DNA of 64,000 bases. Source: a virus. The translations under genes were made by a program, and so were the position numbers. Below the pieces are notes generated by a model. The model searched no databases and was not told the DNA's origin. It worked only from the letters and a program-made list of their open reading frames with translations. Of the stretch, positions 54,999 to 57,929 are shown piece by piece; positions within the stretch are counted from its first letter, which is position 1, and the number at the start of each line of letters is the position of its first letter. Location: the IMG/VR virus record IMGVR_UViG_3300021961_000048, positions 1 through 64,000 of that record; one strand, written 5' to 3'.

Positions 54999-55022
54999 TT
55001 AATACTCCGAGTAACACACAAC

Positions 55023-55028
55023 AGTATA
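55023..55028 (-). promoter_or_regulatory. TATACT -10 element before the AbrB-like gene
   Basis: TATACT on the minus strand, 25 bases before the ATG at 54998. The -35 region is weak, with no TTGACA at normal spacing. Confidence 0.4.
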
Positions 55029-55081
55029 TAGATTTTCTCAGTGTTTGTGATACAACCAGACGTACACGTCAGCACGCACAG

Positions 55082-55236
55082 GTCTGAGAAACTTTTTACC
55101 CCTGGAAAAAATATTTTGTAGAGAGATATTCGCAATCTCTTTTAGGGTGAGGAAGATATACGACCATTCCTCACGGGGGGTCGTAGCGAGGGTCTGGGGG
55201 GTCTCAGAACCCCTGGAAATATTTTTAGAGAGAGAT
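55082..55236. repeat. Two imperfect ~40-bp direct repeats in a gene-poor gap
   Basis: The 332-base stretch 54999-55330 has no gene I can support. It holds two direct repeats, at 55082-55127 and 55201-55236, sharing GTCTnAGAA, CCCCTGGAAA, a run of A/T and TAGAGAGAGATA. The second sits against a GGGGT/ACCCC inverted repeat in a G-rich tract (about 55174-55213). The pair looks like a regulatory or recombination element of unknown role. Confidence 0.6.
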
Positions 55237-55330
55237 AACACTAGGGCGATCCTATACTTTTGTAGGTTAGGGAAGTGGGGCGTTTTAATATAGCGAAATG
55301 GGGGACACGATTGCATCCCCATTGTATACA

Positions 55331-55807: not shown

Positions 55808-55986
55808 CAATCTGCCTCCCAATGGTCATCAGTAGCAGTGAATGGTTTCTTATACTTTTCAACAAAAGTGTCTGTGGAATCTGTGGAAAACTCTCGACGA
55901 TCTTTGTTTCCCCAGTTACGCTTCTCTCTGATAGATTTGGGACGACGTGAGTTGTGAATGTCGTTCTTCTTGTATGTGCGACCCAT
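55807..55986 (-). CDS. Small basic protein (59 aa), first gene of a coupled micro-operon
   Basis: MGRTYKKNDIHNSRRPKSIR then EKRNWGNKDRREFSTDSTDT, ending DDHWEAD. The first half is strongly basic and the second acidic, with no membrane segment. The gene lies 38 bases downstream of the best sigma-70-like promoter in the window and heads a chain of four overlapping genes. The coding DNA contains a TGTGGAAAA DnaA-box match at 55882-55890. Function unknown. Confidence 0.72.
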   Translation of the reverse strand: MGRTYKKNDIHNSRRPKSIREKRNWGNKDRREFSTDSTDTFVEKYKKPFTATDDHWEAD

Positions 55987-56023
55987 GGGATTCTGAATGA
56001 CAGTGTTAGTGAAGGACTCTGTT

Positions 56024-56053
56024 AGTATGTATCAATCAAGGGGGCATTGTCAA
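56024..56053 (-). promoter_or_regulatory. Sigma-70-like promoter: TTGACA, 18 bases, CATACT
   Basis: The minus strand has a perfect TTGACA (56048-56053), an 18-base spacer and CATACT (56024-56029), 38 bases before the ATG at 55986. It is the only promoter here with a consensus -35. A GTGAGG...GTGTCC pair at about 56061-56083 weakly resembles the box of the shared promoter family. Confidence 0.65.
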
Positions 56054-56198
56054 GGGGTTTGTGAGGGTTTCTGAAGTGTCCTGGGGGTGTTGCTAACTCG
56101 CTGTCGATGTGTTACAGTCCGAGGTAACAATAACCACACACATTAACACGAACTATCGAACACTAATGTATGTTTATTAGACCATTTCTTAAATACAC

Positions 56199-56237
56199 AG
56201 TTTTCCACAGACATTGTGGAAAAAGTTGTGGAAAACT
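56199..56237. promoter_or_regulatory. Cluster of three cyanobacterial-type DnaA boxes
   Basis: TTTTCCACA at 56201-56209 and TGTGGAAAA at 56215-56223 and 56227-56235 are exact matches to the DnaA box consensus reported for cyanobacteria (TTTTCCACA). The outer two form a perfect 11-bp inverted repeat (AGTTTTCCACA / TGTGGAAAACT). The flank towards 56160 is AT-rich. A fourth exact box lies at 55882-55890. Possible roles are a replication origin or a host-DnaA-sensitive regulatory site. Confidence 0.6.
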
Positions 56238-56246
56238 GCGCGTTCA

Positions 56247-56891
56247 TTAAGTAATGCCTACAGGGACAACATTGAATGAGATAGTGATACGATTATCCCC
56301 TAGGTTTGATTCATATCCATGAGTCAGATTAGGAGGATAGATTAACACAGTTCCCTCGTTATGAGGTACATAGCACTCGGGTTGATTGAATGCGGTTTCT
56401 TTACTACATTCGATCTGCAATGCTGGGAAATGAGTAGAAACAACGTGTCGTCTAAACTTCAATGGAGAATGAACTTTCTTGTCTAGATTGAGAAAATACG
56501 TTCCCGAATACAGAGCATTAGAATGTTCATGTGGAGCATAGATTGCACCCTCTGATGCTATCTCTAGGTAGGACTCTTGTATGTCAAATCTTGATGCATA
56601 GCACCAGGCATTTTCGTTGTGTTTGGATACTAGATCAAGCAGGATTGTTTTCAGTTCAGGCAGATCATTTAGCAGTTCATTGTCATTCCCTACAGTGACA
56701 ACATTGTGAGAAATCATTCTCCTACCATGATCAGGATTGAGATCCTTAGTTCTCATCCAGGAGAGGATTTGTTGTTTGACGTTGTTATGATCGGGAACGT
56801 CAAATGCAGAGATGGCAGAAGGGAAACATGCGAAGGTTTGATTCTTATGTAATACCTCTTCAGTGAGATTGTCAGAGAGTTGATCAGTCAT
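56247..56891 (-). CDS. 2OG-Fe(II) oxygenase, TIGR02466-like
   Basis: A 214-residue non-haem iron oxygenase using 2-oxoglutarate. The family signature is clear: GAIYAPHEHSNALYSGTYFL with the iron-binding HEH at residues 121-123, a distal His in NLTHGYES (H191), and the 2-oxoglutarate-binding Arg in NRITISFNV (R201). Such enzymes are common in T4-like cyanophages. Substrates are unknown, and prolyl or nucleotide hydroxylation is guessed from relatives. The start MTDQ at 56891 follows the upstream stop by 2 bases; an earlier in-frame start at 56924 would overlap that gene. The downstream gap holds the DnaA boxes. Confidence 0.85.
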   Translation of the reverse strand: MTDQLSDNLTEEVLHKNQTFACFPSAISAFDVPDHNNVKQQILSWMRTKDLNPDHGRRMISHNVVTVGNDNELLNDLPELKTILLDLVSKHNENAWCYASRFDIQESYLEIASEGAIYAPHEHSNALYSGTYFLNLDKKVHSPLKFRRHVVSTHFPALQIECSKETAFNQPECYVPHNEGTVLIYPPNLTHGYESNLGDNRITISFNVVPVGIT

Positions 56892-56893
56892 GT

Positions 56894-57307
56894 TTAGCGA
56901 AGATAGAGATAATGACCTGCCCAATCTGCTTTACGATAACACTCTTCGCGAGAGTTCTTATCAAACAGATTGAAACGAATGCCTTTGGCAGGTTTAGAAA
57001 TGGAGGCGGGTTTATATACGTCACCCGTCACCTTATCTATGAAACAATGAACAGAACGGGATCCGCTCTGATTCATCATCACTTTAGCATACTTGCGTCC
57101 TTCTTCTACATCAAAGGAAATGCGCCAATCAAAACGATCTTCGCGGATTGCATCCAGTTGTGATTGGAAATAACCCGTATCATCAGCACCTTTACTAACC
57201 TGATGACGATAGGACTTTACAGTGTAGAGTCGATAATCTTGCTCCAGTGATTCACACAAACAGGCGATCAAAGTGTTGAGCGGAGTGTTGTTCAGAGTTT
57301 CGAGCAT
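56894..57307 (-). CDS. Conserved cyanophage-type protein (137 aa), unknown function
   Basis: MLETLNNTPLNTLIACLCES starts an N-terminal helix. The middle SFDVEEGRKYAKVMMNQSGS plus RSVHCFIDKVTGDVYKPAS is strand-rich. The C-terminus AKGIRFNLFDKNSREECYRK then ADWAGHYLYLR is a segment I recognise as recurring in small cyanophage proteins, without a known activity. It is the third gene of the operon starting at 57814, separated by 5 bases from the gene before it. Confidence 0.78.
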   Translation of the reverse strand: MLETLNNTPLNTLIACLCESLEQDYRLYTVKSYRHQVSKGADDTGYFQSQLDAIREDRFDWRISFDVEEGRKYAKVMMNQSGSRSVHCFIDKVTGDVYKPASISKPAKGIRFNLFDKNSREECYRKADWAGHYLYLR

Positions 57308-57481: not shown

Positions 57482-57814
57482 TCAACCGAGGCGCATGGAA
57501 GAGAAGAAAGGAACGATGGAAATACCTTGGGCAGTGTTCATCGAAACGAACCAATCGAAGTTCTTTTGAAACACACCATCACCCGATTCGCCGTGCTCTT
57601 TGAGAATAGCATTCAGGCGGGATTTGGTGGTGTTGGATTGCCAACCACCATCGAAAAGACGGATGTAAGTCTCACCCACGTCTGCAATGTGATTGCCGTG
57701 CAGATACACTTTAGACTCACCAGTGTCGGCGTCAAAGGTAACAGAAGTGTTACCAGATTGCCAGTTCACGTTGTTGGTGATGGCGGCGTTCATTTGGGTT
57801 TCGATCTTACGCAT
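57482..57814 (-). CDS. Conserved cyanophage-type protein (110 aa), unknown function
   Basis: MRKIETQMNAAITNNVNWQS then GNTSVTFDADTGESKVYLHG and GGWQSNTTKSRLNAILKEHG. The pattern of strand-turn-strand (SVTF...SKVYLHGNHIADV) followed by a helix is shared with many small cyanophage proteins, and I recall WQSNTTKSRLNAIL as a conserved block. The frame stays open to 57928, but the promoter at 57872-57877 lies inside that extension, so the ATG at 57814 is the real start. It is the first gene of a four-gene operon that ends with the 2OG oxygenase. Confidence 0.8.
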   Translation of the reverse strand: MRKIETQMNAAITNNVNWQSGNTSVTFDADTGESKVYLHGNHIADVGETYIRLFDGGWQSNTTKSRLNAILKEHGESGDGVFQKNFDWFVSMNTAQGISIVPFFSSMRLG

Positions 57815-57871
57815 GATTGAGAAGAGAGTGGGTTGTGGGGGGGCGGTGCTCTGTGCCCCTCCGATGAAACT

Positions 57872-57929
57872 AATATAGGGCATTTGGGGGGTCTGTGCCA
57901 GAATGGTGGACACTCTGCCGACTGGCACA
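57872..57929 (-). promoter_or_regulatory. Shared-family promoter, copy B
   Basis: TGTGCCAGT (57921-57929), 9 bases, GTCCAC (57906-57911), 28 bases, then TATATT (57872-57877) on the minus strand. TGTGCCAG also pairs with CTGGCACA downstream, so the box could form a hairpin that ends the preceding transcript. It drives the gene at 57814. Confidence 0.75.

Follow-up and report, generated by a model that had tools for sequence, protein, structure and literature searches.

Phage P1 and the plasmids related to it have DnaA-dependent origins in which DnaA boxes lie next to an AT-rich region that opens, together with iterons for the plasmid-encoded Rep protein. In T4, oriF and oriG each have a promoter with an AT-rich unwinding element located downstream of it. 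Leading-strand synthesis at oriF is primed by an R-loop formed by the transcript, and several of the T4 origins are found where the nucleotide bias shifts (PMC3016281). For the T4-like cyanophages, a review reported only one predicted theta origin of DNA replication, in Syn9 (PMC2984593).

The window, i.e., the whole stretch of 64,000 nucleotides analyzed here, is part of an 89,959-base virus record and comes from a T4-like cyanophage that is kin to S-WAM1 and S-SZBM1; judging from these relatives, its host is presumably Synechococcus. An intergenic region of the window carries a conserved module of approximately 200 to 250 bp composed of DnaA boxes, an AT-rich motif of approximately 30 bp, and two divergent sigma70-type promoters, here termed P1 and P2. 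As in the phage P1 and plasmid origins, DnaA boxes adjoin an AT-rich region in the module, but no Rep iterons were identified in it, and the phage that carries it is lytic, T4-like, and provided with a replisome of its own. It resembles T4 oriF and oriG in its compactness, in a promoter directed into a short AT-rich element, in a nearby shift in nucleotide bias, and in its occurrence in a T4-like phage (PMC3016281). It differs from them in that the T4 origins have MotA-dependent middle promoters and no described DnaA boxes, whereas the module has sigma70-type promoters, an AT-rich motif that is conserved in sequence, and host DnaA boxes arrayed in phase. Most probably, the module is a T4-type origin to which host DnaA would be recruited to help melt the origin or time its use, and a probability of roughly 0.6 was assigned to the region being a phage replication origin of this kind. 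The module offers an exact, testable location for the proposed start of replication in many genomes.

DnaA boxes in the intergenic region

The intergenic region spans 260 bases, the length given in the initial annotation, runs from 55987 to 56246, and lies between two minus-strand open reading frames (ORFs), a 2OG-Fe(II) oxygenase gene (56247 to 56924; phrog_81, E value of 1.1e-28) and a 59-amino-acid ORF downstream of P2 (55807 to 55986; phrog_3226, E value of 0.00034). The three exact 9-mers that had been annotated within 35 bases were all present: box 1, the outermost of the cluster (56227 to 56235, minus strand), box 2, at 12 bp from box 1 (56215 to 56223, minus strand), and box 3, inverted and at 14 bp from box 2 (56201 to 56209, plus strand), each an exact match to TTTTCCACA. 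The inverted repeat said to contain two of the boxes was also found, with a length of 12 bp rather than 11 bp (CAGTTTTCCACA, 56198 to 56209, and TGTGGAAAACTG, 56227 to 56238). A fourth exact copy, annotated some 300 bases away, does exist (55882 to 55890, minus strand) but sits outside the gap, within the next ORF; it is conserved in loci L080 and L428, at 319 bp from the cluster, and in L112 and L114, at approximately 332 bp. The boxes were kept at this position in the relatives L428, L080/L439, L131, and L434, which have 90, 87, 71, and 68% identity across the stretch, respectively. Elsewhere in the window, a single minus-strand ORF of 7,523 amino acids (24,252 to 46,823), located beside gp6, matched structural proteins of S-WAM1.

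The annotation had named scattering of the 9-mer at similar density as evidence against its proposal, but the entire record contained no copies beyond these four. Shuffling gave a mean of 0.78 copies of TTTTCCACA per 64 kb, and a first-order model predicted approximately 1.0 copy per 64 kb and approximately 8e-8 triples within 35 bp. None of 40 permuted control words reached the cluster score of TTTTCCACA in the window's record and eight other Synechococcus myoviruses.

Identity with the host oriC box

The 9-mer is the published cyanobacterial DnaA box (PMC4674748), in agreement with the annotation, and its assignment as a host-type box was well supported by host genomes. In the regions upstream of dnaN from 34 Cyanobiaceae genomes, including WH7803 and RCC307, TTTTCCACA was the top word of its composition (17 of 34 genomes; next best, 9), and TTTTCC(A/C/G)CN occurred 79 times, compared with 6 times for the reversed word. 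The DnaA-trio TAGTAGTAG was present in 18 of the 34 regions, which marks them as oriC. DnaA domain IV was encoded in 52 of 61 Cyanobiaceae genomes and in all 8 Synechococcus/Cyanobium genomes, and it was found in none of the 18 phage records checked.

The phage module and the cyanobacterial oriC upstream of dnaN have TTTTCCACA boxes in common but differ in their surroundings: the module has neither dnaN nor dnaA nearby, and the DnaA-trio TAGTAGTAG, which would be sought next to the boxes of a DnaA-dependent origin, was found in none of the phage flanks (0 of 67). Exact capture of a host oriC was considered and rejected; a 37-mer of the phage was absent from the host genomes searched.

Recurrence in T4-like cyanophages

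A query of 56 bases around the boxes matched 223 phage records, chiefly Synechococcus phages and other cyanophages, among them S-PM2 and S-RIM32 (the latter with 95% identity over 39 bases, in a gap). A scan of IMG/VR for the three-box pattern returned 119 loci, of which 100 encoded cyanomyovirus proteins and 63 encoded gp25. Because that scan selects the “><<” arrangement, statements about box arrangement were based on loci fetched through the gp6 protein, an unbiased set of 45 nonredundant T4-like loci, each including 5 kb or more of sequence upstream of gp6. In this upstream sequence, TTTTCCACA was clustered in 23 of the 45 loci, more than any other 9-mer; the next independent word was clustered in 4 loci, and the next best of 1,260 words of the same composition in 2. 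Complete genomes of Syn9, Syn19, S-SM1, S-RIM2, S-RIM32, S-PM2, S-WAM1, and S-SZBM1 each contained one dense TTTTCCACA cluster; the module is located at about 52.6 kb in Syn9, 48.9 kb in S-SM1, and 19.3 kb in S-PM2. Dense clusters were not found in S-RSM4, P-HM1, S-SSM7, P-SSM4 (160 kb examined), or Pelagibacter phage HTVC008M, nor were exact-box clusters found in P-SSM2, T4, or P-SSP7. No description of DnaA boxes in T4-like cyanophages was found in the openly licensed literature; an earlier account in a subscription journal, e.g., the Syn9 genome paper, is possible. The module also provides a signature by which phages infecting picocyanobacteria that use DnaA could be recognized in metagenomes.

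Box lattice and AT-rich motif

Among 101 nonredundant clusters, the box spacings were quantized by one helical turn (an 11- to 12-bp lattice), with inverted pairs mainly at 13 to 14 or 23 to 24 bp and direct pairs mainly at 12 or 21 bp. The spacings in the window, 12 bp direct between boxes 1 and 2 and inverted in the 13- to 14-bp class between boxes 2 and 3, are both main modes. In clusters of the “><<” type, the “<” boxes lay at 13 to 14, 23 to 25, and 34 to 36 bp. These spacings bear on whether the inverted boxes fold as RNA into a hairpin that ends the upstream transcript. One terminator-like site was indeed called in the window (56223 to 56201, minus strand; 0.3 expected); however, its stem has only three GC pairs, an Rfam search gave no family above its threshold, the boxes point in one direction in 5 of 23 unbiased clusters (L350, L368, L434, L459, and L463), and the spacing tracks the turn of the helix, not the length of a loop. 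The one-directional clusters and the helical spacing in particular make a terminator very improbable.

A motif search of the flanks identified an AT-rich motif, ATGttTAAAaAAATATAggTgaGTGTTtTa, most often 14 to 17 bp from the cluster edge, to which the boxes are phased, with lattice positions at about −62, −50, −38, and −26. In the window, the motif reads ATGGTCTAATAAACATACATTAGTGTTCGA (56156 to 56185, minus strand), a candidate DNA unwinding element and the sole strong site in the stretch scanned (28.3 bits, versus 11.3 for the next site). The motif likewise formed one strong site in most genomes, with 31.6 versus 9.5 bits in Syn9 and 31.5 versus 11.8 bits in S-WAM1. Because training and scanned sets partly overlapped in this first scan, it was rerun with a model built from other phages only; the window motif then scored 22.8 versus 11.6, and the same sites stayed at the top except in S-PM2, where two sites tied. 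The second S-PM2 match, at 117,792, equals the box-side one in score and has no boxes. The motif was not resolved in S-RIM2 or S-SKS1, and matches were weak in P-HM1 and S-SSM7. AT content was approximately 0.80 inside the motif and 0.6 around it (54 loci), so that, at the level of sequence, a candidate unwinding element adjoins the boxes as at a DnaA-dependent origin. The whole module was visible in an alignment of 11 phages, and in a minority of loci (e.g., L062 and L115) the boxes lay on the opposite side of the motif.

The annotation had offered two readings, an origin borrowing host DnaA and a decoy, and it is partly borne out, with the origin appearing to be the better of the two. As a decoy, the boxes would titrate host DnaA while phage copies build up and would thereby keep the host chromosome from starting further rounds of replication. 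With exact consensus boxes on every phage copy, much of the host DnaA could be bound, and E. coli datA is a chromosomal titration locus that likewise has a DnaA-box cluster; datA, however, is not tied to an AT-rich motif with a promoter directed into it. The phage genomes also have few boxes, at one site each, rather than many boxes without origin accessories, and a pure decoy would require neither a constant helical phase between its boxes and a conserved AT-rich motif nor a promoter directed into that motif. A decoy was accordingly regarded as improbable.

Divergent promoters

Promoter P1 (TTGCTA-17-TACAGT, TG extended; 56090 to 56118, plus strand) is an antisense sigma70-type consensus match directed toward the AT-rich motif and the boxes, and it is conserved in relatives, where it reads TTGACA-17-TAAGAC or TTGACA-17-TACAGT with the TG extension. 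P1 scores of at least 9 were obtained in 55 of 68 loci, compared with 17 of 68 after shuffling; P1 was not among the promoters that a generic scan reported for the window. P2 (TTGACA-18-CATACT; 56024 to 56053, minus strand) is a sense consensus match directed toward the downstream genes and corresponds to the annotated TTGACA promoter, with TTGACA at 56048 to 56053 and a moderate −10 element, CATACT. Many loci have TTGACA-17-TATAAT at this position. In the alignment, the P2 sequences of S-RIM32, S-PM2, S-RSM4, and P-HM1 lacked TTGACA, having mostly CCTCGGA-like sequences instead, and kept TATAAT or TATACT; they perhaps represent a different promoter class. As at oriF and oriG, a promoter thus points into an AT-rich downstream element within approximately 100 bp in the phage sequences, and this arrangement is conserved in relatives.

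DnaA acts also as a transcription regulator, and the module could be a control region where bound host DnaA would turn the divergent early promoters P1 and P2 up or down while taking no part in phage DNA replication. Both promoters are conserved and divergent, and DnaA bound to the boxes, which are downstream of P1, could obstruct or adjust this promoter. Against this, the window has no coding gene behind P1, the genes there being on the minus strand, and the AT-rich motif is essentially unique in each genome, unlike a repeated promoter part, with an AT peak like that of an unwinding element. Regulation alone was therefore considered unlikely, though less so than titration.

If the module is an origin, host DnaA would bind cooperatively to the box cluster along a single face of the helix and would help to open the adjoining AT-rich motif. 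RNA polymerase starting from P1 would cross the motif toward the boxes, the RNA left behind could prime leading-strand synthesis as at T4 oriF, and the phage replisome would then take over. DnaA binding, melting, RNA priming, and origin function itself are what we infer; they are favored by the clustering of TTTTCCACA upstream of gp6, its identity with the host oriC box and its helical phasing to the AT-rich motif, by the near uniqueness of that motif in each genome, the local AT peak and the conserved P1 pointing into it, and by the sign change of the skew (below), the parallels with T4 oriF and oriG, and the presence of DnaA domain IV in hosts and in no phage checked. The case is weakened by the lack of a DnaA-trio in the phage flanks and by the small number of boxes per genome, by S-RSM4, which has the motif without boxes, and S-SKS1, in which neither is clear, and by the skew exceptions and their alternative explanation through divergent transcription.

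Strand composition

A plot of GC skew around 56.2 kb had been suggested as a check, and most, not all, genomes fit an origin. The local skew switches sign around the module in most genomes: (G−C) per base, anchored on the AT-rich motif, was −0.018 approximately 1 kb before the motif, close to zero at the motif, and +0.043 at 1.5 to 2 kb after it, returning beyond this peak to a background of approximately +0.015. With at least one window size of 1.5 to 2.5 kb, the largest skew step of the genome lay within approximately 1.4 kb of the module in Syn19, S-RIM2, S-SM1, S-WAM1, and S-SZBM1. In the stretch analyzed here, with sizes of 2.5 kb or more, it lay at 55.0 kb, 1.1 kb from the module. The largest step lay elsewhere in S-PM2 and S-RIM32, and the step at the module was weak in Syn9. 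Whole-genome cumulative skew tracked gene strand and was uninformative for an origin. The local pattern is suggestive of an origin and supports rather than proves it, since divergent transcription could yield the same pattern. A second long noncoding stretch with repeated AATATTTT and AGAGAGATA words (55,000 to 55,330) is located at the window's largest skew step.

Variation among lineages

S-RSM4 retains the AT-rich motif (26.8 versus 12.3 bits) without boxes. At this locus (L594; approximately 140,248), the motif and a P1-like sequence are accompanied instead by other repeats (TGAGAATCAA and, inverted, TATTGAGAA), and the position of these repeats in the place of the boxes suggests that the initiator-binding part may be exchangeable. 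The same repeats could be taken to mean that the boxes are sites for a phage-encoded DNA-binding protein and resemble DnaA boxes by chance, and a conserved small family, phrog_554, is encoded near many loci. Since the 9-mer is identical to the host oriC box, such a factor is unnecessary, and this explanation was given very little weight. Of the 119 IMG/VR loci, about half have a member of phrog_554 (57,482 to 57,928 in the window) close to the module, on one side or the other.

A broader and more tentative proposal, held with somewhat less than even confidence, is a conserved hybrid origin in which a host DnaA-box lattice would be fused to a T4-style promoter and unwinding element, host DnaA, and through it the cell cycle of the host, would gate the start of phage replication, and the box array would be swapped for other repeats in some lineages, such as S-RSM4. 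The module suggests that even a lytic phage equipped with a replisome may depend on the host initiator, which could tie infection to the cell cycle of the host.

A whole-genome scan of S-SKS1 showed a weak TTTTCCACA cluster. At 151,414 to 151,464, behind tandem repeats, one TTTTCCACA precedes two TTATCCACA boxes spaced by 21 bp, possibly another DnaA-box array; an equally high score was reached by 1 of 40 control words. TTTTCCACA arrays were also present in two IMG/VR contigs (L086 and L111) that had no match to the cyanomyovirus proteins tested and that possibly derive from phages of other hosts.
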